From: Sinotaia quadrata
Taxonomy: Eukaryota; Mollusca; Gastropoda; Architaenioglossa; Viviparidae
Direction of reading: 5' to 3'
Assembly: GCA_028829895.1 (NCBI GenBank)
Contig: CM054179.1
Span: 40,934,617 to 40,998,616 of the forward strand
Length of the DNA: 64,000 nucleotides
The position numbers and the translations under genes were made by a program. The notes under the pieces were generated by a model. That model saw nothing but the letters and a program-made list of their open reading frames with translations. It searched no databases and was not told the origin of the DNA. This document shows, in pieces, positions 50 through 21,810 of the stretch. The number at the start of each line of letters is the position of its first letter. Position 1 is the first letter of the stretch.

Positions 50-163
50 CTCCATTGTCGTCTCTTTCACCAGACTTCCCTCCATTTTCACCGGATCTTC
101 CGCCACTTTCACCGGACTCTTCTTCCGTTTCGCCGGACGTTTGTTCGTCCTCACCAGAACGTG
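50..163 (-). CDS. Exon 7: 114-bp phase-1 exon of SGE modules
   Basis: The acceptor is CTTGTCTGAGTGCAG and the donor is GGAG|GTAACC. After (A)R it reads five exact 7-residue modules: SGEDEQT, SGETEEE, SGESGGR, SGENGGK, SGERDDN, then Gly. It is more acidic than the giant exon. Because it ends with a good phase-1 donor, the gene must continue to the left of the window. Confidence 0.7.
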
Positions 164-3100
164 CTGCACTCAGACAAGGTCCAATAGACATTGTGTAGAA
201 AAGAGACAATTTGTGCATTCATAATGAACAATGAAAGTCTACCTTTAAACCAAATATTAGTGTTTGCAATGTCCAATTAACACATAATGAACAATGAAAG
301 CCTACCTTTAAACCAAACATTAGTGTTTACAATGTCCTATTAACACATGCGCACAGAACGAACTCAACACAGCAGAGATTTCGGGATATAGATGATAAAT
401 AAATCATGAGTCCATATCATAGCGGAGTGCGGATTTGTCTACCACGTATATACTTCACCTGTCTTAGCCGCATATCAGGTGACGTCACTACAACGCTAAA
501 TTGATTGCGTCATTGACTGAATTCCTGACACGATTGAAATTGTCAGTAAACCATGGCACTATATCTTAGTTTTAGTCTAAGATGAATATGGTTATATATT
601 TTTTCTTGTTACTTTTTTAAGACGGGGGAGGGGCTCAAATACTTTGTACACGCTCTGAATTTCTGTCATGCCTCTGAGTATGGTGCTGATGTGATTGACA
701 ACACTGAGCAATCAGAAATGTCTTTCTCTTTTTGGCCAGGCATTACACTATTTCATGGATTGTGTGGGAAAATCTGGATTATTTGTCTTATTAAGTTAGC
801 TCTGTGTTTTTGTCAGAGAAATATATGATACTCACATCTTTGAGAGGAGGGGTGAGGGAGGTCAGAGAGGGGTGAGGGAGGTCGGAGTTATTACGACGGC
901 GTTGAAAAAAACAGAACCATGACCATATAACATTTTAAAAGTTTGTTTCTATAACCATAGAACATTTTAAAAGTTTGTTTCCATGACCATAGAACATTTT
1001 AAAAGTTTGTTTCCATGACCATAGAACATTTTAAAATTTTGTTTCCATGACCCATAGAACATTTTAAAATTCTGTTTCCATGATCATAGAACATTTTAAA
1101 ACTTTAAGCTTTAAGTAATATTAAAAGACATTTACGATTTTAGTTTTGTATGTATTTATACTTTTGTTGTCTATTTCAGCATGCAAACACATTTGGTAAT
1201 TGTAACTTATTTGTGAAAAAAAATCTAGGTGAATGATCTTCGTCCCAAAGAAAAGAATGTGTCGGCGGGGGGGAGGTGAGAAGGCAGGTATTTATATAGA
1301 CATTTAAGCGCTAGAAAATCAGTACAACTGCTTAACTCATGATCTAAGTATTTATTGAGAAGGTTTTCAATCTATGCTGTCTGAAAGATTGCTTTTGACG
1401 TGTAGCATTAATTACTGATACCATTTCTATTCTAAGACGCCTTATTCCCGCAAGTCATAACATTTTTCATTTGAATGGAATCAACTTGGGTGTTTTCCCT
1501 TTATATACTGTCAGCAGGTTTTATTTATTCGATAAATGGTTTAGGGTGCAATTCCAGTTTTCGTTCCTTTTGCTGGTGACGCAAGTGCCGAGGAAGTAGG
1601 TCGTGTTCAACAAGGGCGGTAACTAGTGACTTAAAGATATTCGTGAATGTTTGGGAGGAGTTTGAGCATCTTTTAATACATATGGCCTGATACTTTTTAA
1701 CCCAGACAGCTAGACAGTTGGACAGCTACCGAGTAAGGGGAACGTCCAAACTCACTCATAAAGTTTATTCGCCCTGAACTGGGATTGGGAACGTTTAAGC
1801 GTGTTTAACTTACTTCTGCGCCCTGCCGGCCCTTATGGCAGCAGATTGTATTGAAAGCCTTTGGCCAGTATGTGCTTAGTATTCACTTAGAAACCCTATC
1901 GGCCATTGTCAATGCTTAAGGGCTGTATTGTAAGTCTTATGTCAGACATCGCTAAAGTATAAATATATTCATATTGTAATGTATGTTGTAGATAATGTGA
2001 ATAATGATAAAACAAGAGGAAGTAGTGGTGATTTTACTGACCTTGGGACTACCTTGAAGTGTTCATTTCAAGCTTCACGTACATTTTAATTTAAAGATTT
2101 CACATTAATCAGCTTCATTATTTCTAAACCTTGGGCCACTCTCACTAGACCACTTTCACTGGACTTTGGACCACTCTCACCAGACTTTGGACCATTCTCA
2201 CCAGACTTTGGACCATTCTCATCAGACTTTGGACCACTTTCACCGGGCTTTGAACCACTCTCACCAGACTTTGGACCATTCTCACCAGACTTTGGACCAT
2301 TCTCATCAGACTTTGGACTACTTTCACCAGACTTGGACTACTCTCACCAGACTTAGACTACTCTCACTGGACCACTCTCAATGGACCACTCTCACCAGAC
2401 TTGGACCATTCTCACCAGACTCGAACCACTCACCAGACATCGGATTACTCTCACCAGACTTCGGACTACTCTCACCAGACTTGGATCACTCTCATCAGAC
2501 TTGGACCATTCTCACCAGACTTTGGACTATTTTCACCAGACGTGGACAACTCTCACCAGACATAAGACCACTCTTATCTGACTTGGACCATTCTCACCAG
2601 ACTTTGGACCATTCTCACCAGAATTGAACTATCACCAGATTTAGATCGCTCTCACCAGAACCTTTTCCACTTTGATGACCTATCCCTCAATTTTAACTGA
2701 AATTTGTGTCATTTTGCAGGAACCTTTCTTCACAGAATGTCATTAAGCTTTTTTGGAAAATTTATGGATTAAATAAAACTAACAAACTTACTCTAGACCA
2801 TTTTCAAGAAAAAGGTGACATTATGTTCTAGGGTCTAACAAATCACTTGTTTATACATTATCAGGAAAGATATTCTCACCAACCTAGCAATATTAATAAC
2901 AAGTTTAAAATATAAATAGATATTAACGAATTTGATAATTATATTCTTTATGGACCAAATGGAAAAGGTTCATGAAATATCCTAATAATGAATAAGAAGA
3001 CACTAAATTGACATATTTGAACAAACTAAGGAAATTTTCACATTACTTTAAAACTGACAAATTTAATTTAAATTATGAATCCAGAACGGATCTCTATTTA

Positions 3101-6100
3101 TTAATCAAGAAATATGAAAATTAAACAGAAGATTATATATAAGAGACTGTATTAATACAACAGGAATAAAACTGTATGTAATCAAACATGAACACTCATA
3201 ACTCTTTAATCAGATAAATCAACAGAATTTGAAGCATTTTCAACACATATGCCTCTCCTCACAACTGATTTTACAAAGTTTATAACAGACTATATTTCAC
3301 TCTCACCTGAGTTTCCTCCGTTTTCCTTTGACTTTTCGTCAGACTCGACTGATCCGTTTTTGTCAGACTTTCGTCCAGACTCATTAGATTTTCCTTCTTT
3401 TTCACCAGACCTTCCTCCAGCCTTGCCTGATTTTCCTTCTTTATCTCCAGACTTTCCTCCAGCCTTGCCTGATTTTCCTTCTTTATCACCAGATTTTCCT
3501 CCGGACTCGCCTGATTTTTCATCTTTCTCATCAGATTTTCCTCTGTCTTCGCCTGATTTTCCTTCTTTCTCACCAGACTTTTCTCCAACCTTGCCAGATT
3601 TTCCTTCTTTCTCGCCAGACTTTCCTCCGCCCTCGCCTGATTTTCCTTCTTTCTTGCCAGATTTTCCTCCGGCCTCGCCTGATTTTCCTTCTTTCTCTCC
3701 AGACTTTCCTCCAGCCTCGCCTGATTCTCCTTCTTTCTCTCCAGACTTTCCTCTGGAATCGCCTGATTTTCCTTCTTTCTCGCCAGATTTTCTTCCGGCA
3801 TCACCTGATTTTCCTTCCTTCTCACCAGACTTTTCTCCGGACTCGCCTGATTTTCCTTCTTTCTCTCCAGACCTTCCTCCAGCCTTGCCTGATTTTCCTT
3901 CTTTATCTCCAGACTTTCCTCCAGCCTCGCCAGATTTTCCTTCTTTCTCACCAGACTTTTCTCTGGCCTCGCCTGATTTTCCATCTTTTTCACCAGACTG
4001 TCCTCCAGCCTCTCCTGATTTTCCTTCTTTCTCACCAGACTTTCCTGATTGTCCTTCTTTCTCGCCTGATTTTCTTTCTTTCTCACCAGATTTTCCTCCG
4101 GCCTCACCTGATTTTCCTTCCTTCTCACCAGACTTTTCTCCGGACTCGCCAGATTTTCCTTCTTTCTCGCCAGACTTTCCTCCAGCATTGCCTGATTTTC
4201 CTTCTTTATCTCCAGACTTTCCTCCAGCCTCGCCAGATTTTCCTTCTTTCTCACCAGACTTTTCTCTGGCCTCGCCTGATTTTCCATCTTTTTCACCAGA
4301 CTGTCCTCCAGCCTCACCTGATTTTCCTTCCTTCTCGCCAGACTTTCCTCCAGCCTCTCCTGATTTTCCTTCTTTCTCACCAGACTTTCCTCCTGCCTTT
4401 CCTGATTGTCCTTCTTTCTCGCCTGATTTTCCTTCTTTCTCGAAAGACTTTCCTCCGGCTTCGCCTGATTTTCTTTCTTTCTCACCAGATTTTCCTCTGG
4501 CCTCACCTGATTTTCCTTCCTTCTCACCAGACTTTTCTCCGGACTCACCTGATTTTCCTTCTTTATCTCCAGACTTTCCTCCAGCATCGCCAGATTTTCC
4601 TTCTTTCTCACCAGACTTTTCTCTGGCCTCACCTGATTTTCCATCTTTTTCACCAGACTGTCCTCCAGCCTCTCCTGATTTTCCTTCTTTCTCACCAGAC
4701 TTTCCTCCGGCCTTTCCTGATTGTCCTTCTTTATCGCCTGATTTTCTTTCTTTCTCGCCAGATTTTCCTCCAGCCTCACCTGATTTTCCTTCTTTCTCGC
4801 CAGACTTTCCTCCAGCCTCGCCTGATTTTCTTTCTTTCTCGCCAGACTTTCCTCTGTCTGCTCCTGATTTTCCTTCTTTTTCAGGAGACTTTCCTTCTTT
4901 CTCACCAGACCTTTCTCCGGACTCGCCTGATTTTCCTTCTTTCTCTCCAGACTTTCCTCCAGCCTTGCCTGATTTTCCTTCTTTATCTCCAGACTTTCCT
5001 CCAGCCTCGCCAGATTTTCCTTCTTTCTCACCAGACTTTTCTCTGGCCTCGCCTGATTTTCCTTCTTTCTCACCAGACATTCCTCCGGTCTCGCCTGATT
5101 TTCCTTCTTTCTCGCCAGACTTTCCTCCAGCCTCGCCTGATTCTCCTTCTTTCTCATCAGATTTTCCTCCGGCCTCGCCTGATTTTCCTTCTTTCTCACC
5201 AGACTTTTCTCCAGCCTCGCCTGATTTTCCTTCCTTCTTGCCAGACTTTCCTCCAGCCTCGCCTGATTTTCTTTCTTTCTCGCCAGACTTTCCTCCGGCC
5301 TCGCCTGATTTTCTTTCTTTCTCGCCAGATTTTCCTCCAGCCTCACCTGATTTTCCTTCCTTCTCACCAGACTTTCCTCCAGCCTCGCCAGATTTTCCTT
5401 CTTTCTCACCAGACTTTTCTCTGGCCTCGCCTGATTTTCCATCTTTTTCACCAGACTGTCCTCCAGCCTCTCCTGATTTTCCTTCCTTCTCGCCAGACTT
5501 TCCTCCAGCCTCTCCTGATTTTCCTTCTTTCTCACCAGACTTTCCTCCTGCCTTTCCTGATTGTCCTTTCTCGCCTGATTTTCTTTCTTTCTCGCCAGAT
5601 TTTCCTCCGGCCTCACCTGATTTTTCTTCTTTCTCGCCAGACTTTCCTCCGGCTTCGCCTGATTTTCTTTCTTTTTCGCCAGATTTTCCTCTGGCCTCAC
5701 CTGATTTTCCTTCCTTCTCACCAGACTTTTCTCCGGACTCACCTGATTTTCCTTCTTTATCTCCAGACTTTCCTCCAGCCTCGCCAGATTTTCCTTCTTT
5801 CTCACCAGACTTTTCTCTGGCCTCACCTGATTTTCCATCTTTTTCACCAGACTGTCCTCCAGCCTCTCCTGATTTTCCTTCTTTTTCACCAGACTTTCCT
5901 CCGGCCTTTCCTGATTGTCCTTCTTTCTCGCCTGATTTTCTTTCTTTCTCGCCAGATTTTCCTCCAGCCTCACCTGATTTTCTTTCTTTCTCGCCAGACT
6001 TTCCTCTGTCCTCGCCTGATTTTCCTTCTTTTTCAGGAGACTTTCCTTCTTTCTCACCAGACTTTTCTCCGGACTCGCCTGATTTTCCTTCTTTCTCGCC

Positions 6101-9100
6101 AGACTTTCCTCCAGCCTCGCCTGATTCTCCTTCTTTCTCATCAGATTTTCCTCCGGCCTCGCCTGATTTTCCTTCTTTCTCACCAGACTTTTCTCCAGCC
6201 TCGCCTGATTTTCCTTCCTTCTTGCCAGACTTTCCTCCAGCCTCGCCTGATTTTCTTTCTTTCTCGCCAGACTTTCCTCCGGCCTCGCCTGATTTTCTTT
6301 CTTTCTCGCCAGATTTTCCTCCAGCCTCACCTGATTTTCCTTCCTTCTCACCAGACTTTTCTCCGGACTCGCCTGATTTTCCTTCTTTATCTCCAGACTT
6401 TCCTCCAGCCTCACCAGATTTTCCTTCTTTCTCACCAGACTTTTCTCTGGTCTCACCTGATTTTCCTTCCTTCTCACCAGACTTTTCTCCGGACTCACCT
6501 GATTTTCCTTCTTTATCTCCAGACTTTCCTCCAGCCTCGCCAGATTTTCCTTCTTTCTCACCAGACTTTTTTCTGGCCTCACCTGATTTTCCATCTTTTT
6601 CACCAGACTGTCCTCCAGCCTCTCCTGATTTTCCTTCTTTCTCACCAGACTTTCCTCCGGCCTTTCCTGATTGTCCTTCTTTCTCGCCTGATTTTCTTTC
6701 TTTCTCGCCAGATTTTCCTCCAGCCTCACCTGATTTTCCTTCTTTCTCGCCAGACTTTCCTCCAGCCTCGCCTGATTTTCTTTCTTTCTCACCAGAATTT
6801 CCTCTGTCCTCGCCTGATTTTCCTTCTTTTTCAGGAGACTTTCCTTCTTTCTCACCAGACTTTTCTCCGGACTCGCCTGATTTTCCTTCTTTCTCTCCAG
6901 ACTTTCCTCCAGCCTCGCCAGATTTTCCTTCTTTCTCACCAGACTTTTTTCTGGCCTCACCTGATTTTCCATCTTTTTCACCAGACTGTCCTCCAGCCTC
7001 TCCTGATTTTCCTTCTTTCTCACCAGACTTTCCTCCGGCCTTTCCTGATTGTCCTTCTTTCTCGCCAGATTTTCCTTCTTTCTCACCAGACTTTCCTCCA
7101 GCCTCGCCAGATTTTCCTTCTTTCTCACCAGACTTTTCTCTGGCCTCGCCTGATTTTCCATCTTTTTCACCAGACTGTCCTCCAGCCTCACCTGATTTTC
7201 CTTCCTTCTCGCCAGACTTTCCTCCAGCCTCTCCTGATTTTCCTTCTTTCTCACCAGACTTTCCTCCTGCCTTTCCTGATTGTCCTTCTTTCTCGCCTGA
7301 TTTTCCTTCTTTCTCGCCAGACTTTCCTCCGGCTTCGCCTGATTTTCTTTCTTTCTCACCAGATTTTCCTCTGGCCTCACCTGATTTTCCTTCCTTCTCA
7401 CCAGACTTTTCTCCGGACTCACCTGATTTTCCTTCTTTATCTCCAGACTTTCCTCCAGCATCGCCAGATTTTCCTTCTTTCTCACCAGACTTTTCTCTGG
7501 CCTCACCTGATTTTCCATCTTTTTCACCAGACTTTCCTCCAGCCTCGCCAGATTTTCCTTCTTTCTCACCAGACTTTTCTCTGGCCTCGCCTGATTTTCC
7601 TTCTTTCTCACCAGATGTTCCTCCGGTCTCGCCTGATTTTCCTTCTTTCTCGCCAGACTTTCCTCCAGCCTCGCCTGATTCTCCTTCTTTCTCATCAGAT
7701 TTTCCTCCGGCCTCACCTGGTTTTCCTTCTTTCTCGCCAGACTTTTCTCCAGCCTCGCCTGATTTTCCTTCTTTCTTGCCAGACTTTCCTCCAGCCTCGC
7801 CTGATTTTCCTTCTTTCTCGCCAGATTTTCCTCTGGCCTCACCTGATTTTCCTTCTTTATCTCCAGACTTTCCTCCGGCCTCGGCTGATTTTCTTTCTTT
7901 CTCGCCAGATTTTCCTCCGGCCTCACCTGATTTTCCTTCCTTCTCACCAGACTTTTCTTCGGACTCGCCTGATTTTCCTTCTTTCTCGCCAGACTTTCCT
8001 CCAGCCTTGCCTGATTTTCCTTCTTTATCTCCAGACTTTCCTCCAGCCTCGCCAGATTTTCCTTCTTTCTTGCCAGACTTTCCTCCGGCCTCACCTGATT
8101 TTCCTTCTTTCTCGCCAGACTTTCCTCCGGCCTCGCCAGATTTTCCTTCTTTCTCGCCAGACTTTCCTCCATCCTCACCTGATTCTCCTTCTTTCTCTCC
8201 AGACTTTCCTCTAGCCTCACCTGATTTTCCTTCTTTCTCACCAGACTTTCTTCCATCCTCGCCAGATTTTCCTTCTTTCTCGCCAGACTTTCCTCCGGCC
8301 TCGCCTGATTTTCCTTCTTTCTCGCCAGACTTTCCTCTGGCCTCACTTGATTCTCCTTCTTTATCACCAGTCTTTCCTCCGGCCTTGCCTGATTTTCCTT
8401 CTTTCTCGCCAGACTTTCCTCCGGCCTCACCTGATTTTCCTTCTTTCTCGCCAGACTTTCCTCCAGCCTCGCCTGATTTTCCTTCTTTTTCTAAAGACTT
8501 TCCTACGTCCTCGCCTGATTTTCTTTCTTTCTCACCAGACTTTTCTCCAGCCTCCGTTGATTTTCCTTCTTTCTCTCTAGACTTTTCACCGGCCTCACCT
8601 GATTTTCCTTCTTTCTCACCAGACCTTCCTCCAGTCTCGCCTGATTTTCCTTCTTTCTCTACAGACTTTCCTCCAGCCTCGCCTGATTTTTCTCCTTTTT
8701 CTATAATGGTAACAACAATTTATTAAATATTAAATGATGTTTAAATATTCAAAAGTAGAAAATGGAAGTTTATCTTCTTAAGTTACATATGTCTCTATAC
8801 TAGTGTAAAAAAGCAAATTAATATAAATGTTATATATTTTTTAATTATGGCTGAATAATAACCCGAACCAATTTCTGAATTCTTCTATTAGAAAAAATAT
8901 TAAATCAAAATACTAATAGTAAATAATGTCTGGATACTTCTGTTAAAAATTTTAAATCCAAATACTCGTGTAAATTATATTATTACGTAAAGTATAATTT
9001 TTAATGTGCACAAGTGCATACAAACAAATTTTTTTTAATTAAATGATTAAATGACCAAACGATCTACAAAGAAATGCAAACCATGACTATTTTAGTGGTT

Positions 9101-10005: not shown

Positions 10006-10085
<80 letters not shown>

Positions 10086-13000
10086 GCACAAATACACACG
10101 CATACATTGATAATTATAGGTATATAATTTTATATACCGGTCTTGATGATATTTTGAATGGTCTTAAGTGCATTTTCAGCGTTAAGCCCACTTTCCCCGG
10201 ATTTGGATGCAATTTCACTCGATTTTCCTCCGCTTTGGCCTGATTTGTCTCCGATGTCACCCAGTTTGGGTGCAATGTGTTCTGATTTTCCTCCGCTTTG
10301 GCCTGATTTGTCTCCTGTGTCACCTGGTTTGGGTGCAATGTGTTCTGATTTTCCTCCACTTTGGCCTGATTTGTCTCCGATTTCACCCAGTTTTGAAGCT
10401 TTTTCATCGGATTTCGGTGCACCTAAAATATATACAAAAATGGAAATAGAAAGTTGATTCTGATCTAGCTGCAAGAAATGTAGCATAATGTTTTGTCATT
10501 TATTCTAAAGCCAATCACTACACATACCTAGTTGTAATGCGACGGGAATATTCCCTTGTCGGGTGTGCTCTCAAAGATCTTTCAAAATTCTATTCTTCAT
10601 TGAATAAAATAAAATGTATGTACCGTTTTATTTGAAATCGTGCACTTGTTAATAATATGACAATATGAATATGAATTGACGACTATAATATAAAACGTTA
10701 CAGAGATAGAAAATGGACGACTATAATATAAAACGTTACAGAGATAAAAAATGGACGACTATAATATAAAACGTTACAGAGACAGAAAATGGACGACTAT
10801 AATATAAAACGTTACAGAGATAGAAAATGGACGACTATAATATAAAATCACAGAGATAGAAAATGGACAATGTTTAAAGAACTGTACAGAGGACCATATG
10901 TGCATAGAACATTGGGTAAAGAGCAGTGTGCAAAGAACAGTGTATAAATGTAAGTGTGCAAAGAACAGTGTATAAATGTAAGTATGCAAAGAGCAGTGTG
11001 TAAATGGAAGTTTGCAAAGAACAGTGATTAAGAGGAAGTGTGCAAAGTGAAACATTATCCAGAAATAAGTGTATACAGTATGCAATATTACTCGATATGC
11101 TTATATATTCTATTTGCGTGGTAAGGTGAAAAGTGTTCATGAAACGTAATTACTAAATAAAACCTTTTGGCACAATGAATAGTAATGATAAATACATATT
11201 CTAATAGTCAAGAATCTCTGGCCGAGGTCTGACCCACAATGCACAGTCATGTTCCTGTAAAGAATTAAGAGTCTGTGTCTCACCTCCAGTGTCTTTAGTT
11301 TCACTGGACTTTAACGCTGTATCTTACCTCCAGTGTCTTTAGTTTCACTGGACTTTAGCGCTGCATCTTACCTCCAGTGTCTTTAGTTTCACTGGACTTT
11401 AAAGCTGTATCTTACCTCCAGTGTCTTTAGTTTCACTGGACTTTAGCGCTGTATCTTACCTCCAGTGTCTTTAGTTTCACTGGACTTTAGCGCTGTATCT
11501 TACCTCCAGTGTCTTTAGTTTCACTGGACTTTAACGCTGTATCTTACCTCCAGTGTCTTTAGTTTCACTGGACTTTAACGCTGTATCTTACCTCCAGTGT
11601 CTTTAGTTTCACTGGACTTTAACGCTGTATCTTACCTCCAGTGTCTTTAGTTTCACTGGACTTTAACGCTGTATCTTACCTCCAGTGTCTTTAGTTTCAC
11701 TGGACTCGAAAGGCTTCTGAATGCCTTGACCAAGCAGCGATGATTTCAAACCGAGATCTGAACAAAAGAAATGGGTCAGTAATCAATACAAATAAACCAT
11801 TCTTTGAACTAGAGATATAAACTTATACACAAATACAAATATATCAATCAGTGAATAAAGACTAGTAAAAATACAAATAATTACTGTGAAAGCGAAATGG
11901 ACAAAGAAACAGAGAATCAATATTGAAAAAGAAAAGAACCTATGAACAGTACAAAGAAATCAAACAGTAAGAAAAAAGAAAAGAACAATACAAATAAACC
12001 AATCAATATTAAAAAAGAAAGGAACTAATGAACAATGCAAATTAACCAGTCATTGTGAAAGAAAAAACTAATATAAACAATACAAAAAAATTAATAACTG
12101 AATATAGAAAAAACTAATATAAACAATACAAAAAAATTAATAACTGAATATAGAAAAAACTAATATAAACAATACAAAAAATTAATAACTGAATATAGAA
12201 AAAACTAATATAAACAATACAAAAAATTAATAACTGAATATAGAAAAAACTAATATAAACAATACAAAAAAATTAATAACTGAATATAGAAAAAACTAAT
12301 ATAAACAATACAAAAAAATTAATAACTGAATATAGAAAAAACTAATATAAACAATACAAAAAATTAATAACTGAATATAGAAAAAACTAATATAAACAAT
12401 ACAAAAAATTAATAACTGAATATAGAAAAAACTAATATAAACAATACAAAAAATTAATAACTGAATATAGAAAAAACTAATATAAACAATACAAAAAAAT
12501 TAATAACTGAATATAGAAAAAACTAATATAAACAATACAAAAAAATTAATAACTGAATATAGAAAAAACTAATATAAACAATACAAAAAATTAATAACTG
12601 AATATAGAAAAAACTAATATAAACAATACAAAAAATTAATAACTGAATATAGAAAAAACTAATATAAACAATACAAAAAATTAATAACTGAATATAGAAA
12701 AAACTAATATAAACAATACAAAAAAATTAATAACTGAATATAGAAAAAACTAATATAAACAATACAAAAAAATTAATAACTGAATATAGAAAAAACTAAT
12801 ATAAACAATACAAAAAATTAATAACTGAATATAGAAAAAACTAATATAAACAATACAAAAAATTAATAACTGAATATAGAAAAAAGTAATAAACGCACAA
12901 AATACACCAATCAGTGTAAAAGGCAAATAGAGTCATACACTAAATCCATCCACTAAATTATGTAAACAGACTAAGAAACTGAGACAGAGTAAATTTGCCT

Positions 13001-16000
13001 ATCCCTATTTCTAAACTTAATTGTATATAAAATATTAAATAAAATATTTAATAATAATAATAATATAAATTGTAGAAGTGACCCGACCTTGCGCACTCCT
13101 TATGATGGTATTTTTGTGTCAGAGTTGGAGTAAGAACTCGAGTTGCTAATGCAACCCAAACCAATTCCAACTGGATGAGTAGTTTTTATTATCCAATGGG
13201 TAAGATTTATGAGAACAAGACCAGCCAATGGGCTGAGATCAAAAGTGTACCTCCTTTGGAGAATTATATTGACTACTCACTTCAAGTTGGTGTGGCAAAA
13301 AGTCCGATCATGAAAGGCTGTTGTTAGCATAATGAATAAGTGACCTTTCCTTGTTTTATCTGAATCTCCTGGTTCACTGATTATAAACTGTTATGACCGT
13401 GGTAGATGTGAGAAGTATCTATTGCAGTGTGTAAATGTAAGGAATGCATTCTGTTGATGTATGGTGGCAAGGTATGCTGACTACATAGAGCAATTTCTGG
13501 TACAAGGAAGTTACTGGAAATTGATACAATAGTTGTTCTGCTTGAGGGAGCTAATACGGCGAAGAAGTGCCCAGATTAACCTTGAGAGAATTGCAACTAA
13601 TCAGTGTTCTCCAACATGAGGATGGAATCACGTGGAACTGACAGTAGTAATGTGAACACTAAACTTGTGACTTTGTTACAAAAAGCGCATGAAAGACTAT
13701 TGAGACAGCACCTAAACCAGGTTATGTACAAACTATTATTGTTTATCTCTAATAACTCCATTTCTGTTCTCTGATAAGAACTACCCTGTGATTTGTATTA
13801 ACACTAAATTGGTGAATTGTGTTTAGGATAGGTATTATGATAAGGATACATATTTGTCAACGGGGTTTCTCAACAATACAAGTAAGTAAATCATTGTATT
13901 TATTCTCGTGTCTCTTTTCTATTTTTATTCTTACTTATATCTAAATTAAATTGTTAACCTTGTACCATTTGTGTTCCGCTCTGTCGTGCGACTCACTATG
14001 TGTTGTGGTACTCACGTGACTTGTTCGTCTGCTGCGTAGTCTTGGTTTTATATCTTCCTAGTACTTTTGCCAAGACAGAGAGGTGGGGCCTGAGCCAGAG
14101 GTGACTTTTAGATATGCATAGGAAGAGGACATCCAAAGGAAAGGGGCTAGCCCAAAGTCGGGACTTTCAATATTATACTGTAAAACCCTTTTCACGGGGT
14201 CAGTAATTAACACCAGGTTTAGGTTTACACATTGAATATTTAGAAAAGTGACTATTAAATAATGCAAATTAACCAATTAATGTGAAAGAGAAAAGGAGTA
14301 ATTAATAATACAATTAAATCTATTATTCTGAAAGGGAAAATAAACAAACTAAATGAGCCAATTACGGTGAAGACAAATGGGTTAATAAACAAATTAAATG
14401 AGCCAATTACTCTGAAGACAAATGGGCTAATAAACAAACTAAATGAGCCAAATACTGTGAAGACAAATGGGCTAATAAACAAGCTAAATGAGCCAATTAC
14501 TGTGAAGACAAATGGGCTAATAAACAAATTAAATGAGCCAATTACGGTGAAGACAAATGGGCTAATAAACAAATTAAATGAGCCAATTACTCTGAAGACA
14601 AAAGGGCTAATAAACAAACTAAATGAGCCAATTACTGTGAAGACAAATGGGCTAATAAACAAATTAAATGAGCCAATTACTCTGAAGACAAAAGGGCTAA
14701 TAAACAAACTAAATGAGCCAATTACTGTGAAGACAAAAGGGCAGGCACAATACAAATAAATCAATCATGGTGAATAAGAAAATTAATAATAAATAATATA
14801 TTAATCAATTATTGTGAAAGAAAATTAGTAATAAGTAATATTAATATGTACGTCACTGAATAAGAATACTTCTAAACAATTCAAATACACCAGTGTATAA
14901 AACGTAACAGACTACTAAACAAGGGAAATAAACTAGTAATAGAAATGTTCTCGTAAACAATAGAAATAAATCAAATGAGCGAATAACAGATATACAGTTT
15001 CTGACGCTTTGCGAGATAACTTCCTCGCGATTAAAACAAATCGATATTGATTGATCCACAGTGTGATTGGGACCCAGGATTAGGGTGTAGGGAACCAAGC
15101 CCCTCCGGAGCTGTGCAGGGTCAAGAACACCCTAAGTCAAAAGGGCTGTGTACAAGCTCTGAAGAGAAAAGAAGCTAACACAGCCCTAACCACCACTTCC
15201 TCGAGATTAATTCAATGTTTGATTTAAGGACGCAAGCCATTTATAAATTCAATGTTTGATTTAAGGAAGCAAGCCATTTATAAATTCAATGTTTGATTTA
15301 AGGAAGCAAGCCATTTATAAATTCAATGTTTGATTTAAGGAAGCAAGCCATTTATAAATTCAATGTTTGATTTAAGGAAGCAAGCCATTTATAAATTCAA
15401 TGTTTGATATAAGGAAGCAAGCCTTTTATAAATTCAATGTTTGATTTAAGGAAGCAAGCCATTTATAAATTCAATGTTTGATTTAAGGAAGCAAGCCATT
15501 TATAAATTCAATGTTTGATTTAAGGAAGCAAGCCATTTATAAATTCAATGTTTGATTTAAGGAAGCAAGCCATTTATAAATTCAATGTTTGATTTAAGGA
15601 AGCAAGCCATTTATAAATTCAATGTTTGATTTAAGGAATCAAGCCATTTATAAATTCAATGTTTGATTTAAGGAAGCAAGCCATTTTTAAATTCAAATGC
15701 ACACACACTCATACACACAGTAGTTTATAGTACAGACAAACAAACTTTTTCTCACCTGTATTCACTTTAGCATCAACATCCAATTTCGTGTCTGTAGACT
15801 CTTTTTCGGCTGGATACAAGAAAGTTTTCACGATTAACATATATAATAAATTTGATGAATTATAAATACATAATCATGTATTTTTCATACATAAAGCATG
15901 TTTATAATTAAATTTATTTGTATTTACTTAAAAATAAATGAAAGAACTAAACTTTACATAGGTCCATCTATAAATATTTGCTCTAAATGATTAAAATTAC

Positions 16001-16319
16001 TGATGTATCACCAAAGAAACAAATTCTTATGCCTTGGTCTTGGAGCGGGAAGCTGGGTGGAGAAAACAGATTACATGTTCATTCCATACAGAGTTCTTGT
16101 CATCAATTACTTGCACACAGAACACGTGCTCATGAAAGTTCTTGTCATCAATTACTTGCACACAGAACACGTGCTCATGAAAGTTCTTGTCATCAATTAC
16201 TTGCACACAGAACACGTGCTCATGAAAGTTCTTGTCATCAATTACTTGCACACAGAACACGTGCTCATGAAAAACAGACGTGATAATAGAAAGAGAAGTT
16301 GGTGGAAATATATATTATG

Positions 16320-16386
<67 letters not shown>

Positions 16387-19300
16387 TACATACATACATA
16401 CATACACACACACAAGTGGGCTTGCATCTGCGTGTATGCGTGTGTGCTAAGTGCATGAAAATGTGCTACGTGATCAAACAGATATGAAACCTATATGTAT
16501 GTGTATGTGAGTGTGTAATCAAGCAGATATGAAATCTATGTGCGTGCGTAACGGGTGCGAGTGTGTCTCTGTGTGTGATCGAGTAAAGTATGAGACCTAA
16601 ATGCGTGCGTATGTGCGTGCGTGTGTGTCTGATCAAGTGTATACGAGACTTATGAAAGTGCACGTGTGTTTGTGGTCGAGTAGATATGTAACATGTGTGT
16701 GATCGGGTAAACCTAAATGTGTGCGAGCGTGCATTTGCGTGGTCGCGAATATATGTGATATCTAAATTCATGCGTGTAGTTGGTCCAGCAGTTAGAGACA
16801 TGAGTGTGTGCGTGAGTGTCTGTGGTCGAGTAAATATGAGACTCCCTGCATATGAGTGATCGGGCAATTGTGAGACCTACTCAGTGTGTATGCCGAAAGC
16901 TCAGCGAGGTTGTAGTATATTACTTAAATTAATACTTGTAAAAAAGTATTAAAAAAAAAAAACCTTTAAACTTACCGCTTTTTTCTTCAGTGCCCCAGTT
17001 TAATAAACCTGGGAAAACATTGAGAAAGAAGAAAACACTTTGAATGTTAATAGGACACAAAACGCACGACCATGCTATAAACACCCACAGACGCACACAT
17101 GCGCGCAGCAGCACATCAGAGACACGGACGCAAGCAAACTCTTAGATTGCATTTTCCCCATTTCATAGATTAATGTAAAAACAACCCAACGATTCTATGT
17201 TCTTCCGTTTAACATGTTAGCGTGAAGAATAACTTTAAAAATAACTTTAAAAATTATAATCAATAAATAACTTTAAAAATTATAATCAATCTGCTTTATT
17301 CAGTTGTGTTAAAGTTTCACATTTTATTTCTGTTATTATATTTCCAAAAGGCAGCCAGCGAAAAACTATTTTTGTTTTGATCACGATAAGTGCTAGAACA
17401 GATGTTGGTAGTCTACTAATCCAACATTATTTTCCCAAAAAAGCACTTTGCCCCAAAGTAACAGGGATTTGGAATCACTTTACAAATTCCCTACTCTCGG
17501 AAACCCAGTACTATGGCATTTCCCAATTCAGTTTGGGTGCTTTCATTTGTAGTCGTTTTAAAACATATTATCCCAAACAGAGCCTCAAGAAAGGGAAGGC
17601 CTTATTTCATGCACCTAGTCCTTGGGCGTCGTAAGAAACTTGAAGGCAATTCATTTGGTGCCGTGTGCATAAATTCGTGTTTGAAGAATAGTTCAGCTCC
17701 AAAATCGAATAATAGTTACTGTAACCTCACTGTACTCTCTTTGACCCAGTTGATATTTTGAAATGGTCTTCAAAATATCTTAAAATTAGATATATTGATT
17801 AATATATCCTAATTTTTTTGACAGTGTTCATCTAAATATCTTACGGGGTTTCATAGGGATTCATAACTTGCATGTTATAATTTCTTATTATGCAGTTGAT
17901 ATTTTGATTAAATATTCGATTTTTATCTCTTCATTAGTTAAGCAAAATAATCGAATGAATAAATATATTCTGCTTGTATAAACTGCTTGATAAATGCAAC
18001 CTGCAAGCTTGCTTAATTGATAAGTGCATCCTGCAGGCATTGGTGATATGATGAATGAATCATGCAGATATTGGTGATATAATCAATGTATCCTGCATAA
18101 ACTGGTGATATGATGAGTATATTCTGCAGACTTTGGTGATATGATCTATGTTTCCTGCGGGTAATGGTGATATAATCAATGTATCCTGCAGACATCGGTG
18201 TTTTGATTAATGTAGTCTGCAGGCATTCATAATACGATCAGTGTTCCCTGGAATCTTTGATGACTTGATTAATGATCTCTCAGGCATTGGTGATTTGATC
18301 AATGTAGTGTATTCTGCAGACGTCAGTGTTTTGAATAATGTACCCTGCATTATGTGAGACTTGATCAATGTATTCTGTAGGCATTATAAGTATACCCTGT
18401 AGGCATCCGGTGGGTTGATTAGTGTATGACCTTATCTGAGAGCCCTGAATGCATTGGTGGTTTCATCAATATATCCTGCAGTCTTGGGGGTGCATAAACT
18501 TATCCTGCAGATCTTTAGGGCAGATCTACTTTTGAACCGCAACTACCCGTCATTCTAAATGGTGAACACCACCTCAGTGTATTGTAACAAAGATGGAATA
18601 GAACTTTAGAGGTAAAAACACAATTTCCATCGTATCAGTACATTGATAACAAAGATGGAATAGAAACTTTAGAGGTGAAAACAATTTCCATCGTATCAGT
18701 ACATTGATAACAAAGATGGAATAGAAACTTTAGAGGTGAAAACAATTTCCATCGTATCACTGCATCAGTTATGACACTTTTTGTGACCTTTTGTCACGTT
18801 TGTTCATTCTGACTGTATATCGATGATACAAAATATTATTTGCCTTCCTGTCATTATCTGTGTTGATGCATTGTTTTCTCTTTATGTCAGTAACTGTCCA
18901 TACTATTACCATTCAAAATTGCCTGAATATTTCCACAAGAGAATAACGCTATTAATAGGTTTAACAGTCAAAATTACATTATAGTTTATTTCCTCAAATT
19001 TCAACAAGTGAGTTAATTTAACTTATTGATTCACTGATTTCTTTGTAACGTCCACATCCAATGTTTTGGACAATGAAGTCAGACATTAAGGATCGTAAAT
19101 TGAAGATGCTGAAATAAATGAAGAGTAATCACGTGATTAAAATGTCAAAGAGAGATGGCAATCATTAGATGATCCAGCGCAGCGATTTGGAAAGCAATTC
19201 TTTATACTCACGTCTGGCATTCTAGTCAATTTGTGTGAGCGCGTGCGCGCCTGTGACTGTATATTAACCATAGTAAAGAAATCGGTGGCAGGGTGCGATC

Positions 19301-21037
19301 AGAATTAGGGTGGGTACAGGCTAGCGTTGGTATCCATCGTTTTGTGGACAATACGTCGGCAAGTGCAAGAAAGAGTTTTTATTCAATAGGTGCTTCCCAA
19401 TGGAATCTTTGAGTATTAATAACAGCGATCTGGGGACAATTAGGTGGATTGGGGAGGGGGTGCTGCTGGAAAGTAATGATGTTCATCACTTGTTTAATTG
19501 TTTCAGCTGCTATCACGTTTATCATTAAACTACTGAAAGAGATGGCCGATGACTTTCTATCATGTTTATCATTAAGCCTACTGAAATTAGATGGCCGATT
19601 ACTGTTGCTATCAGATTTATAGTTAAGCCTACTAAATTTAGATGACTGATGTCTGTTGCTATCAGGTTTATCGTTAAAACTAATGGAATTAGATGACCGA
19701 TGTCTATTGCTATCACTTTTATCATTAAGCCTACTGAAATTAGAGGGCTGGTGGCTGCTGCTCTATAAATACATTTGTCAGTTGTTACGAGTTAAGCTGT
19801 AGATAATATTATCAAAGCTCTATCACATCACACATATGTTGTTTGCGTCTAACATCGTCAACACCAATCCCTAGTGCTTATGTTCTAAAGTTATTTCCCT
19901 TTAAATGAGGCTCCAGATTCAACTCTCTTTGCTTAATGCCCTAGAATCGATACCCGAAATATTTTTTTAAGGACTCATAACATTTTACATATTGATAAAA
20001 TGAACTCTTACTGTTTCTTTCATGCATATGTTTTCTCTTAAGAACTATCACAAATTTTAATTTGAAAACCATTCCTCCGAGAGAGAGAAATCTGTAATCC
20101 AACTCGAATGGTGTTGCTTTAATCACTCAGATCGAAGTATTACAAAAAGGGCGTGCTGGAATTTGGTCACTGATCGCAATCATGCCCAAAGCACGCTAGG
20201 GGAAATAACTCCTTATCAACACTCGTAAAATAAGACGTCTTTGCAATCTGACATTATTCACGAGACCAGCTTTCGCTTGATATAAATTAAATCACTTAAT
20301 TTAACAAAATACTTCAGTGTATTCCGACATAATGTTTCAGGAGACTGGCTTAAAACGATATCTTTACATTAAATATTGGTTTTGGTGTGTTACTTTTAAC
20401 TAATGTATCGCTTTGGGTTTGTTAACTATAGATATAGTATTGGCGTGGGTTGTTATATTTAACTAAAGTATTGCTTTGGGTTTGTTATATATAAATATAG
20501 TATTGGTTTGGAGAAGTCACATTTAAAAGAAGGATTGGGTGTGTTATCTATAGATACAGTATTGGATTGGGTGTGTTATCTATAGATATAGTATTGGATT
20601 GGGTGTGTTATCTATAGATATAGTATAGGATTGGGTGTGTTATCTATATATATAGTATTGGATTGGGTGTGTTATCTATAGATATAGTATTGGATTGGGT
20701 GTGTTATCTATATATATAGTATTGGATTGGGTGTGTTATCTATAGATATAGTTTTGGATTGGGTGTGTTATCTATAGATATAGTATTGGATTGGGTGTGT
20801 TATCTATAGATATAGTATTGGATTGGGTGTGTTATCTATAGATATAGTTTTGGATTGGGTGTGTTATCTATTGGGTGTGTTATCTATAGATATAGTATTG
20901 GATTGGGTGTGTTATCTATAGATATAGTTTTGGATTGGGTGTGTTATCTATAGATTTGGCTTTGAGGACGTTATCATTAGATTATGTATTATTTTCTAGA
21001 TACGATGTATTGTGTTCAGCGCTTTTAACAAGTGTTA

Positions 21038-21098
<61 letters not shown>

Positions 21099-21810
21099 GC
21101 CTCTTTCCACGACTTCTGTTTGACTGTCGGTTGTGATCCAAGGTCTCAGAATCTTACCAAAATTCTGGGAGATCCAAGGTTTTACGGAGGATGTGGGCAC
21201 TTCCGAGGAGCGCTGCTTTGAGTAGTGGAGTGAGTCTGTGGTTTTATTATTATTATTATTATTATTAAAAACGAAGCAAATCTGTAATATTTGTGCGTAA
21301 ATATTTTCAACAAACTTATCACTATGAACAAAGCAAAGCTGTAAATTTGTGTACATTTACTGTGACGCTACTAACGGAAGTAAATTTGCATTCTTAGTGC
21401 ACAAAATAGCTTTCAGTTCCATGCACTATTTATTGATTTAGCAACGCTTCACTATAATAGAAGTGTATAGAGCAACATCTGAGAAACACACAAATTTTAA
21501 AGTTTGATTTATTTCAGAAATGAATGTCATGAAGGAAGTACATGTAAAATTAAACTAACACTTAAAAGATCATTTTTAGAAATGTAATTATATCAAGTAA
21601 GCTGGTAAGAAGGTTTGGATTTATTTTGATTTATTTAAACTTATGACTATTTAAGAGAAAAAATGTTTCATTTATTTATTTATTTGTATATAGACTCAAT
21701 CTAAAGTTAGAAGTGAAAAAGAAATTTAAACAAAATCTTCACTTACTCCAAGCTGACACTGTGTTGGCCCAAAAGACCAGGACACAGCACAGCAATGCAG
21801 ATAGCCGCAT
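50..21810 (-). CDS. Giant secreted SGExxGK-repeat protein gene (seven exons seen, 3' end outside window)
   Basis: I do not recognise this gene. Seven exons can be chained on the minus strand: 21747-21810, 16976-17008, 15756-15809, 11680-11757, 10138-10422, 3307-8700 and 50-163. Every exon has an AG acceptor and a GT donor, and every junction is in phase 1, so each internal exon is a multiple of 3 bp (33, 54, 78, 285, 5394, 114). The first exon encodes a signal peptide, so the product should be secreted. The rest is Ser/Gly/Lys/Glu-rich, largely in 7-residue modules (SGEKEGK, SGEAGGK, SGQSGGK, SGENGGK). No Cys or membrane segment is seen after the signal peptide. Visible coding length is 6,022 bases, about 2,007 residues. 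The composition suggests an intrinsically disordered extracellular polymer such as a mucus, matrix, shell or adhesive component; that role is inference. Extra exons could have been missed, and no terminal exon is visible. Confidence 0.72.
164..2129. other. Intron sequence with short duplications
   Basis: No exon is recognised. A roughly 61-bp segment is duplicated at 223-344. A 34-bp unit (core CATAGAACATTTTAAAA) is repeated about six times at 914-1105. A G-rich GAGGGGTGAGGGAGGTC pair lies near 845-890. The remainder is unique AT-rich DNA. Confidence 0.6.
2130..2660 (-). pseudogene. Frame-broken SGENGPK array, probable relic exon of the repeat-protein gene
   Basis: About 25 units of 20-21 bp. 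On the minus strand the 21-bp units read SGENGPK, SDENGPK or SGESGPK, the same 7-residue module as the functional exons. Several units are 20 bp and shift the frame, so no continuous reading spans the array, and I find no acceptor with a pyrimidine tract in the right phase. Nearly every unit contains TCTG|GTGAGA, a good splice-donor match. A 153-residue plus-strand frame (DHSHQTL repeats) crosses it but has no other support. It may instead be a live exon in a part that I cannot resolve. Confidence 0.45.
2661..3306. other. Unique AT-rich intron sequence
   Basis: Nothing coding or repetitive recognised between the relic array and the donor of the giant exon. Confidence 0.5.
3307..8700 (-). CDS. 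Exon 6: giant 5,394-bp exon, about 128 copies of a 14-residue SGEKEGKSGEAGGK unit
   Basis: The exon starts after the acceptor CCATTATAG and ends at TCAG|GTGAGA, phase 1 at both ends, 1,798 codons. I followed this frame through the array and saw no stop, so all length changes must be multiples of three. The unit is 42 bp and consists of two 21-bp half-units, SGEKEGK and SGEAGGK, with frequent variants (SGDKEGK, SGKAGGK, SGESGEK, SGEAREK). The typical 14-mer has three Lys and three Glu, net charge near zero. There is no Cys and almost no hydrophobic residue. Larger blocks of several units recur, for example those marked by the GATGGA variant near 3.98, 4.28, 4.64, 5.44, 5.84, 6.59, 6.97 and 7.16 kb. 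The other minus frame (Lys/Arg/Glu/Asn-rich) and the plus frame (Pro/Asp/Phe/Ser) are also open, but they do not fit the splice phases or the sister exons. Confidence 0.74.
8701..10010. repeat. Intron minisatellites (59 bp, about 21 bp and 33 bp units)
   Basis: At 9082-9375 a unit of about 59 bp (core AGTGGTTACTTGGATCAGGT) occurs four to five times. At 9430-9800 a degenerate unit of about 20-21 bp (AAGAGATCAAGAGATTAGTT) occurs many times. At 9868-9932 a 33-bp unit is doubled. 8720-9080 is AT-rich with no recognised element. Confidence 0.75.
10011..10083. repeat. (CT)n(CA)n microsatellite
   Basis: A run of CT dinucleotides passes directly into a run of CA dinucleotides, just downstream of the exon 5 donor on the minus strand. 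Confidence 0.95.
10138..10422 (-). CDS. Exon 5: 285-bp phase-1 exon of 7-residue modules
   Basis: The acceptor is TATATTTTAG and the donor is ACCG|GTATAT. It opens (G)APKSDEKASKLGEIGDK and continues in modules of seven: SGQSGGK, then SEHIAPK, then PGDTGDK. This 21-residue (63-bp) block recurs almost three times. It closes with SGESGLNAENALKTIQ and NIIKT. The SG-G-K pattern links it to the giant exon downstream. Phase 1 at both ends. A plus-strand reading also exists, as in the other arrays, but has no splice support. Confidence 0.72.
10676..11045. repeat. Two intronic minisatellites (38 bp and about 29 bp)
   Basis: At 10676-10866 a 38-bp unit (core GACGACTATAATATAAAACG) is repeated five times. 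At 10905-11045 a unit of about 28-31 bp (core GTGCAAAGAACAGTGTATAA) is repeated about five times. Short readings through them have no support as genes. Confidence 0.85.
11283..11680 (-). repeat. 44-bp tandem array with a splice donor and acceptor-like site in each unit
   Basis: Nine 44-bp units plus the boundary copy. On the minus strand each unit is a 33-bp exon-like part reading (A)LKSSETKDTG in phase 1, then GTAAGATACAG, which holds both a donor (GGAG|GTAAGA) and an AG. The 11-bp gap is too short to be an intron between adjacent units, but joining alternate units would remove 55 bp. Differences among units within the 33-bp part (TTA/CTA, GCG/GCT) are silent in this frame. The leftmost copy has GTGAG instead of GTAAG. 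Confidence 0.8.
11680..11757 (-). CDS. Exon 4: 78-bp phase-1 exon ending at the first of ten tandem splice donors
   Basis: The acceptor is CTTTTGTTCAG and the donor is GGAG|GTAAGA. It reads (D)LGLKSSLLGQGIQKPF followed by ESSETKDTG plus one base. The last 11 residues correspond to the 33-bp part of the 44-bp unit that is tandemly repeated downstream at 11283-11680. Each downstream unit repeats the donor, so the exon could end at any of them, but only the first keeps the frame without further splicing. Confidence 0.62.
11758..12064. other. AT-rich intron sequence
   Basis: Imperfect A-rich motifs (AACAATACAAATAAACCA type) that look like degenerate relatives of the adjacent minisatellite. No exon seen. 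Confidence 0.5.
12065..12890. repeat. 45-46-bp minisatellite, about 18 units
   Basis: The unit core is AATTAATAACTGAATATAG followed by AAAAAACTAATATAAACAAT. The copies are almost identical and differ mainly by one A in a homopolymer, which suggests recent amplification. Lies within the intron between exons 4 and 3. Confidence 0.95.
12986..13205 (+). repeat. Interspersed repeat family, copy C (partial)
   Basis: Shares the start GTAAATTTGCCTATCCCTAT, then the segments AAGTGACCCGACCTTG and CCAACTGGATGAGTAG with the longer copies at 22.9 and 28.9 kb. Similarity fades after about 13205. It contains a TAA-rich insertion near 13040-13070 not seen in the others. Element class unknown. Confidence 0.65.
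13206..14340. other. Unique intron sequence, nothing recognised
   Basis: No exon with phase-1 splice sites, no repeat array and no transposon motif was found here. Confidence 0.5.
14341..14745. repeat. 45-bp minisatellite, about nine units
   Basis: The unit core is AATGAGCCAATTACTGTGAA then GACAAATGGGCTAATAAACA. Because 45 is a multiple of 3, frames stay open on both strands (KTNGLINKLNEPITL on plus), which is a by-product of periodicity. Confidence 0.9.
14746..15210. other. Intron sequence, nothing recognised
   Basis: AT-rich with imperfect traces of the preceding array. No exon or mobile element recognised. Confidence 0.45.
15211..15692. repeat. 37-bp minisatellite, about 13 units
   Basis: Unit core TTGATTTAAGGAAGCAAGCC; the copies are almost identical. 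Sits just downstream of exon 3 on the minus strand. Confidence 0.95.
15756..15809 (-). CDS. Exon 3: 54-bp phase-1 exon
   Basis: The acceptor is CTTGTATCCAG and the donor is ACAG|GTGAGA. The reading is (A)EKESTDTKLDVDAKVNT plus one base: hydrophilic and rich in Lys, Asp and Thr, similar in style to the rest of the protein. Phase 1 at both ends. The exon is unique sequence just beyond a 37-bp minisatellite, so it is not a repeat artefact. Confidence 0.6.
16087..16275. repeat. 45-bp minisatellite, four units, open on both strands
   Basis: Four near-identical 45-bp units (core GTTCTTGTCATCAATTACTT then GCACACAGAACACGTGCTCA). Frames are open on both strands. The minus reading is FHEHVFCVQVIDDKN, unlike the Cys-free SGExxGK protein around it, and no convincing splice pair flanks it. 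Most likely intronic. Confidence 0.8.
16323..16870. repeat. (CA)n/(CATA)n microsatellite and degenerate GT-rich tract
   Basis: A CA run with one AA interruption passes into CATA repeats to about 16414, then a long degenerate GTGTGTGTGA-type tract to about 16870. Small readings here are products of low complexity. Confidence 0.85.
16976..17008 (-). CDS. Exon 2: 33-bp phase-1 microexon
   Basis: The acceptor is TTTTCCCAG and the donor is G|GTAAGT. With the split first codon it reads (S)LLNWGTEEKS plus one base. Phase 1 at both ends matches exon 1 and the following exon. It is short, so the splice signals and phase are the main support. Confidence 0.55.
17009..18000. other. Intron 1, unique part
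   Basis: No exon or mobile element recognised. It includes a short ATAACTTTAAAAATTATAAT duplication near 17230-17290. Confidence 0.5.
18000..18770. repeat. Degenerate ~30-bp array followed by a 61-bp array
   Basis: At about 18000-18500 an old, degenerate unit (GGTGATATGATCAATGTATC then CTGCAG) recurs at roughly 30-bp steps. At about 18577-18770 a unit of about 61 bp (core CAAAGATGGAATAGAAACTT) occurs three times. Confidence 0.75.
19540..19745. repeat. ~57-bp minisatellite, four units
   Basis: Unit core TTTATCATTAAGCCTACTGA followed by AATTAGATGGCCGATG, moderately diverged. The flanks (18771-19539 and 19746-20390) show nothing recognised. Confidence 0.8.
20395..20955. repeat. 32-bp minisatellite, about 15 units
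   Basis: Unit core GGATTGGGTGTGTTATCTAT then AGATATAGTATT. The copies near 20530-20950 are nearly identical, and those at the left end are more diverged, as expected for an array that grows from one side. Confidence 0.9.
21038..21266 (-). mobile_element. LINE 3' end fragment flanked by (ATT)n
   Basis: The body (21099-21240) read on the minus strand gives ALLGSAHILRKTLDLPEFW, then a stop, then a Lys/Arg-rich stretch running into AAT repeats. The LGxAHILRK motif is typical of the C-terminal end of reverse transcriptases of non-LTR retrotransposons common in aquatic invertebrates (family recognition from memory). The tail is a trinucleotide run (21038-21098), and a second TTA run lies on the other side (21243-21266). 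Only the last 140 bp or so are present: a 5'-truncated copy. Confidence 0.6.
21747..21810 (-). CDS. Exon 1: start codon and signal peptide of the repeat-protein gene
   Basis: The exon encodes 21 residues, beginning MRLSALLCCVLVFW and ending TVSAW, then one base of the next codon. It has one basic residue after Met, a hydrophobic core of about 12 residues, and a V-S-A motif suited to signal peptidase before the Trp. The donor is A|GTAAGT, a near-perfect consensus. The ATG has an A at -3, and an in-frame TGA lies nine codons upstream, which supports this start. A longer 105-residue frame overlaps in another phase but has no such signal. Confidence 0.7.

Follow-up and report, generated by a model that had tools for sequence, protein, structure and literature searches.

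A giant SGExxGK repeat gene in Sinotaia quadrata with a predicted secreted, lectican-like product

A predicted matrix protein with a giant heptad spacer

The stretch of Sinotaia quadrata DNA analysed here (64,000 nucleotides, hereafter the window; G000:C3:40934617-40998616 of a 984-Mb assembly in 26 contigs, in which window position plus 40934616 gives the contig position) appears to hold, on its minus strand, the first seven exons of a gene for a predicted secreted, lectican-like matrix protein that would make a hydrated gel, a reading to which we give about an even chance. The sequence supports a gene of several exons that carries a giant SGExxGK array and whose product is secreted; we infer that 13 exons are spliced into one message, and a hydrated extracellular polymer is the natural guess for its product.

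The seven exons in the window join in phase 1, free of stops and with AG and GT borders, to encode 2,007 residues (Table 1). An earlier note on this DNA had described seven phase-1 minus-strand exons with good splice sites that join a signal peptide to about 1,980 residues. The exons, their phase and the length agree with our computation (a signal peptide plus 1,987 further residues), but both sites of exon 5 and the acceptor of exon 6 are weak. Splice ranks are given as shares among 6,831 GT and 7,450 AG sites and come from a splice matrix without training on S. quadrata. The module that the note had placed in three exons is present in each of them, as SGQSGGK (three times) in exon 5, SGExxGK throughout exon 6 and SGENGG in exon 7.

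With a donor cut of 6.5, the ATG at 21810 was the sole start among 2,327 (1,165 minus, 1,162 plus) to be followed by a signal-peptide-like stretch and then a phase-1 donor; an earlier version of the test, with a cut of 6.7 and a slightly different rule, had passed none on the minus strand and, on the plus strand, a single start at 32871. On the minus strand between 21800 and 8700, nine of ten phase-1 symmetric exon candidates are or overlap the described exons (23 minus-strand and 10 plus-strand candidates in the whole window), although these exons pass by construction because the thresholds were derived from exons 2-5. When symmetric candidates were merged over 24.4 kb, there were 10 in minus phase 1 versus 3-6 in the five other combinations of strand and phase, a modest surplus.

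Organization of the exon 6 array

Exon 6 is a stop-free run of 257 units. Regular heptads make up 253 of these and come in 51 kinds; the other four deviate from heptad length by multiples of a codon, and the frame stays open from end to end. The commonest residue at heptad positions 1 to 7 occurs in 251, 237, 214, 131, 122, 201 and 225 of the 253 heptads, the conserved positions being Ser1, Gly2, Glu3 and Gly6. A pattern-based recount, which fixes Ser by construction, was left out of this ranking of conservation. Heptads with Lys at position 4 (SGEKEGK, 131) and those without it (SGEAGGK-like, 122) alternate at 240 of 252 steps and thereby give the DNA a 42-bp period. A loose word search of the array returned a single spacing in 436 that was not a multiple of three, which we take to be an out-of-frame chance match.

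Departures from the consensus unit DNA fall 116, 65 and 293 times on codon positions 1, 2 and 3, respectively. We caution that this pattern cannot separate the strands, because the third codon positions of the minus frame are third positions of the plus frame as well, so that variation there counts for both. At sites that are four-fold degenerate in one frame and two-fold in the other, the GGA before Lys at position 6 is invariant though free to vary in the minus frame, and Glu-to-Asp changes are equally common where they would harm the plus frame. A decayed sister array in intron 6, with KSGENGP-like units spread over three frames with stops, was matched at 1.1e-6, with a single TAG in the match, by the query made from exons 1-5, and an open exon 6 array beside it is what would be expected of a translated array next to an untranslated sister. 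Charge compensation within heptads was considered and rejected: a result in which 0 of 2,000 permutations were as low came from misregistered units, and in the correct register 1,525 of 2,000 permutations reached the observed value or fell below it, as did 1,247 of 2,000 when every unit type entered only once.

Thirty-one of the 213 GT sites in exon 6 score within 2 bits of the terminal donor or above it (30 at or above), and all 31 are in phase 1 because SGE is often written TCAGGTGAG; the array is in this respect a coding repeat that carries its own in-frame splice-site-like words. If any of these internal exon 6 donors were spliced to exon 7, a shorter array would result and the reading frame would be preserved. 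Protein length is therefore not fixed, given either these strong internal donors or the alternative end formed by the stop at 3290 and the AATAAA behind it. Splice-site-like words also occur in other repeats at the locus: the unit of a 44-bp minisatellite repeats the end of exon 4 with its GTAAGA donor, GTAAGT-bearing repeats follow the last lectin exon (window -7949 to -8437, from C3 40926667 leftward), and the plus strand of the array resembles a series of acceptors, 200 of its 201 AGs scoring at least as high as the exon 6 acceptor.

Lectin-like exons beyond the window

The donor of exon 7 points beyond the window edge, and in the 30 kb examined to the left (negative positions continue the window coordinates) six phase-compatible minus-strand exons encode two C-type lectin-like domains. 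Exon 7, which bears SG sites, lies between the array and these exons, and exon 8 continues its phase with an acceptor that scores 11.2; the gene probably continues past the window, and an end at position 50 is unlikely. Over the 13 exons the outgoing phases are 1-1-1-1-1-1-1-2-1-1-1-0-1, with 2,300 residues and no stop. Within the second lectin domain mismatched phases called for a small exon, and the intron was then seen to contain one of 53 nt.

Domain 1 matches Pfam Lectin_C at 8.2e-9 (36.6 bits) and domain 2 at 9.9e-5 (23.5 bits), so that both belong to the family, the second barely over the curated cut-off of 22.6. The earlier note had recognized no named family, which holds for the repeat but not for the whole predicted protein. 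By sequence, the relatives of domain 1 in the PDB are the PLA2 receptor and mannose receptor 2; the first third of domain 2 alone was matched there, with NKG2-D and aggrecan best. Over the stretch that begins with exon 7 and closes with domain 2, two of 152 ATGs passed the signal-peptide test (-2021 and -2752), and since both follow the beginning of the first lectin exon, we see none that this exon could use independently. A stricter scan (0 of 533 ATGs) was set aside as evidence, as it also missed the start at -11030. This start, with its own signal peptide, opens a putative adjoining minus-strand gene that runs leftward from C3 40923586 to about -29200 (about 40905400); among its pieces VWD, TIL and one of two lectin pieces pass the Pfam cut-offs, and EGF and the other lectin piece do not.

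Composition and candidate modification sites

The mature part inside the window (1,987 residues) contains 300 Ser, 263 SG and 237 S-x-E and has near-perfect charge balance, with 456 basic versus 453 acidic residues. Opposite charges are also finely mixed in the exon 6 array, where kappa is 0.045 versus 0.162 after shuffling (sd 0.011; 100 shuffles), and polyampholyte chains with well-mixed charges are expected to be unfolded and swollen. Cys and Tyr are both absent from the windowed mature part, which sets it apart from the Tyr/Cys repeats of DOPA adhesives and from disulfide-linked gels, and its 9 Pro and 18 Thr leave it without the Pro/Thr/Ser-rich tandem repeats of secreted mucins. As in secreted phosphoproteins of the Fam20C type, Ser-x-Glu motifs are numerous in the predicted secreted chain. 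The full predicted mature chain of 2,280 residues has 266 SG sites, 263 of them with an acidic residue within four positions, and the best context for a glycosaminoglycan (GAG) chain is EEESGESGG in exon 7.

Taken together in chain order, the predicted protein would consist of a signal peptide, a giant SGExxGK spacer and two C-type lectin-like domains. Fine mixing of opposite charges would keep the spacer unfolded and swollen; the functional groups would sit on the well-kept Ser-Gly pairs, and for these groups xylose-linked GAG chains are our first guess and Ser-x-Glu phosphorylation the second; and the lectin-like domains may anchor the chain to partners, so that the anchored chain could swell into a hydrated gel within mucus, a glue or the shell matrix. 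Snail mucus has documented GAGs and proteoglycans (PMC10295696). A mucus or adhesive setting would be suitable because the adjoining VWD/TIL/EGF/lectin gene recalls limpet pedal mucus proteins (P-vulgata_1; PMC7333891), and a shell setting is equally possible (PMC4897951).

The locus offers a concrete candidate layout, a neutral polyampholyte spacer with lectin-like anchors. Should it bear GAG chains, the protein would be an invertebrate counterpart that converged on aggrecan; should it be phosphorylated, it would present 237 candidate S-x-E sites in a secreted chain. In both cases it would show how nature designs a hydrated gel around a spacer that does without Cys and Tyr. A bolder version, which we regard as rather unlikely, would make it an independently evolved snail proteoglycan of aggrecan type, with more than 250 Ser-Gly sites, a charge-balanced heptad spacer, a C-type lectin-like end and a length tunable through phase-1 donors that the repeat supplies as CAG|GTGAG inside SGE, serving as the core protein for sulfated gels of gastropod mucus or shell.

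Alternative interpretations

Several observations weigh against the exon model or the lectican-like reading. Splice sites are weak at the exon 6 acceptor and, downstream, at the donors of exons 8 and 9 and the acceptor of exon 11; the message may either stop after ICEKSK in exon 13 or splice further; and a Cys-bearing open stretch between exons 9 and 10 (-4129 to -4446), with no convincing Pfam match (DUF3586 at 0.053, below the cut-off), falls outside the model. The start-codon control was tuned, its donor cut having been lowered to 6.5 after the outcome at 6.7. The usual calcium-dependent sugar site of C-type lectins is EPN or QPD plus WND, and in the spliced sequence domain 1 has EPD without WND and domain 2 neither motif. 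Lys or Arg directly precedes Ser at 220 of the 266 SG sites, unlike GAG sites, which are usually in acidic surroundings. Finally, four of the six frames are open across most of the array, including a plus-strand frame of 1,838 residues, so that long open frames at this place prove nothing.

An alternative interpretation, possible though doubtful in our view, is a giant repetitive low-complexity protein of the mantle secretome, in which Fam20C-type phosphorylation of Ser-x-Glu would be followed by calcium binding or self-condensation while the lectin-like domains bind other parts of the matrix. Such repeats occur in about 30% of the identified shell matrix proteins of Lottia, Haliotis and Pinctada (PMC4897951), 16 of 46 unique phosphosites in limpet shell fit S-x-E or related motifs (PMC4094399), and in the pearl oyster fam20C is high in the mantle edge and its knock-down disturbs nacre (PMC5824888). 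The 237 Ser-x-Glu among 300 Ser of the windowed mature part compare with 60 (sd 6) in 500 composition shuffles, but Gly at +1 (237 of 253) is better kept than Glu at +2 (214 of 253, with 19 changed to Lys and 18 to Asp). Fam20C has no need of Gly at +1. Of the two modifications, xylosylation of a Ser-Gly acceptor (GAG) agrees slightly better with the order of constraint, Ser > Gly > Glu, than does Fam20C action on Ser-x-Glu, and our confidence in the lectican-like reading is moderate because this order favours GAG chains but the Lys or Arg before Ser speaks against them.

The gene could also stop after exon 6, at 3290, with exon 7 and the lectin exons belonging to another gene or to an alternative 3' end and the product an array-only polyampholyte. 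We consider this improbable: the stop and AATAAA are in place, intron 6 is 3.1 kb long, the terminal donor is matched or exceeded by 30 others in exon 6, and three TATA-like motifs lie between 400 and -1189, but exon 7 combines SG modules with an acceptor, a donor and a fitting phase, which exon 8 continues, and no signal-peptide-like start precedes the first lectin exon. Less probable still is an array that is an untranslated minisatellite or is read from the plus strand (the SPDFPSF... frame). The four open frames, the third-position variation common to both strands and the acceptor-like plus-strand AGs are all consistent with it. However, the like modules of exons 5 and 7, which have splice borders and share one phase, the signal peptide, the lectin exons on the same strand and the uneven spread of consensus differences over codon positions argue against it, as does the decayed array nearby, which has the look of an unconstrained copy.

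Comparison with known proteins

The central region of lecticans is Ser-Gly-rich, and in the predicted snail protein a long Ser-Gly-rich region likewise precedes a C-terminal lectin domain. Lecticans (aggrecan, versican, neurocan and brevican) share with it the order of a long side-chain region and then a C-terminal C-type lectin domain (PMC4052930). Unlike them, it has a Lys-rich heptad as its repeat and two lectin-like domains, and its GAG chains are putative; residues 1-171 matched no Pfam family at E 0.5 and so show none of the N-terminal Ig and Link (hyaluronan-binding) domains of lecticans, and Lectin_C is alone in the modelled C-terminal part, without EGF or CCP, although later modules are possible past the open 3' end.

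With the repeats of shell matrix and mantle secretome proteins the array has in common a predicted secreted setting, short units, disordered composition and often lineage-restricted occurrence (PMC4897951), but it is charge-neutral, very long and joined to lectin-like domains, whereas those repeats are acidic or Gly/Ala-rich. The limpet pedal mucus adhesive P-vulgata_1 is also a secreted gastropod protein with C-type lectin-like modules (PMC7333891); it is, however, Cys-rich (7.6%) with vWFD and EGF, whereas the 2,280 residues of the predicted snail protein include a giant repeat and no more than 9 Cys. It is the next gene on the same strand, with its VWD, TIL, EGF-like and lectin pieces, that is like gastropod mucus adhesive proteins.

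Relatives in the genome, protein library and literature

A heptad query against the genome (E 0.001; 46 matches among the best 150 of 164 candidates scored) found the exon 6 array and two loci on contig C5, and a GEKHGK query found the same places (9 matches among the best 150 of 206 candidates scored). At E 1 the query with exons 1-5 gave 10 matches: five fall in these exons or in the array, one falls in the decayed array, and four, elsewhere, are weak (E 0.098-0.54). No second copy of the gene was found in the 984-Mb genome with these three queries. The C5 loci resemble the gene on C3 in a signal-peptide-like start, judged by eye, and in same-frame heptads, (S/D/A/T)(G/D)EKHGK versus SGEKEGK, which occur as SDEKHGK, SGEKHGK, AGEKHGK and TGEKHGK. 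Unlike it, they have His for Glu and cleavage-like basic sites, and their first donor is in phase 0. No lectin module was found by Pfam in the single C5 frame scanned; metal binding by the His-rich repeats is a guess.

Candidates from the protein library were restricted to 275-875 and about 110-350 residues, and full-length relatives thus lie outside the comparison. Three proteins matched among the best 7,996 candidates by shared words: P0001 (4.4e-12), a papain-domain protein with SGK-type repeats, and two sigma-factor proteins with SGE-like tails. We judged all three to show compositional likeness rather than kinship. A second search found no homologue at E 1 among 2,695 candidates. The library does contain snail proteins, as a control query with MRPS27 gave 75 matches that include snails and other molluscs, the highest-ranking named species being Nucella lapillus (55% over 100%), Batillaria attramentaria (61% over 68%), Patella caerulea (47% over 95%), Haliotis asinina (44%) and Lottia gigantea (44%), with one contig protein 99% identical over 71%. 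These matches point to a caenogastropod snail, the group to which Nucella and Batillaria belong. Among the papers searched, no text containing five heptad strings of the array was found, and no description of such a protein, as judged on titles and the openings of abstracts.

Table 1 Features of the locus in window coordinates, or contig coordinates where C5 is named
Feature	Position	Strand	Remarks
TATA-like TATTTAA	21988..21994	-	184 bases 5' of start codon; short motif, by itself no evidence of function
Exon 1	21747..21810	-	start codon, signal peptide MRLSALLCCVLVFWANTVSA, phase-1 donor (top 3.5% of GTs)
Exon 2	16976..17008	-	33 nt, phase 1-1, reads SLLNWGTEEKS; acceptor top 1.8%, donor top 0.6%
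Exon 3	15756..15809	-	54 nt, phase 1-1; acceptor top 3.5%, donor top 0.5%
Exon 4	11680..11757	-	78 nt, phase 1-1; 3' end and donor inside 44-bp minisatellite; acceptor top 2.3%, donor top 0.7%
44-bp minisatellite	11273..11706	-	9.9 copies, 97% matches; unit repeats exon 4 end and GTAAGA donor
Exon 5	10138..10422	-	285 nt, phase 1-1, three SGQSGGK; weak, acceptor top 10.5%, donor top 7.6%
Exon 6	3307..8700	-	5,394 nt, phase 1-1, heptad array; acceptor weak, top 14.5% of AGs
Alternative end	3290..3306	-	stop at 3290 if exon 6 donor unused; open frame 3290-8719
AATAAA	3097..3102	-	possible poly(A) signal of alternative end
Decayed sister array	2148..2662	-	in intron 6; KSGENGP-like units over three frames with stops
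Exon 7	50..163	-	114 nt, phase 1-1; six SG sites including EEESGESGG; acceptor top 4.4%, donor top 3.0%
Exon 8	-1189 to -1324	-	start C3:40933427; phase 1-2; acceptor 11.2, donor 4.1
Exon 9	-2430 to -2650	-	phase 2-1; donor 3.6
Exon 10	-5275 to -5316	-	phase 1-1
Exon 11	-6386 to -6583	-	phase 1-1; acceptor below listing cut of 4
Exon 12	-6787 to -6839	-	53 nt, phase 1-0; AG and GT borders
Exon 13	-7722 to -7950	-	phase 0-1; ICEKSK-stop or splices on from -7950
MRPS27	frames 46095-45763, 42101-40959	-	Pfam 6e-14, 5e-58
ORC2	frames 55118-54957, 52196-51945, 51663-51499; 60673-60449	-	first three above cut-off, last below
C5 locus 1	C5 53898431-53900771 (53.898 Mb)		GEKHGK repeats, TATA motif before start
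C5 locus 2	C5 53919509-53921252 (53.920 Mb)		GEKHGK repeats, TATA motif before start

Other features of the window

MRPS27 and ORC2, both on the minus strand, are useful as synteny anchors. The window (1-64000) is very dense in minisatellites, with 116 overlapping tandem-repeat rows, often 20-70 bp in unit length and in some cases almost perfect, which suggests that slippage or unequal exchange is still under way. By eye, a plus-strand open stretch at 49148-49387 resembles a remnant of a retroelement reverse transcriptase/RNase H.

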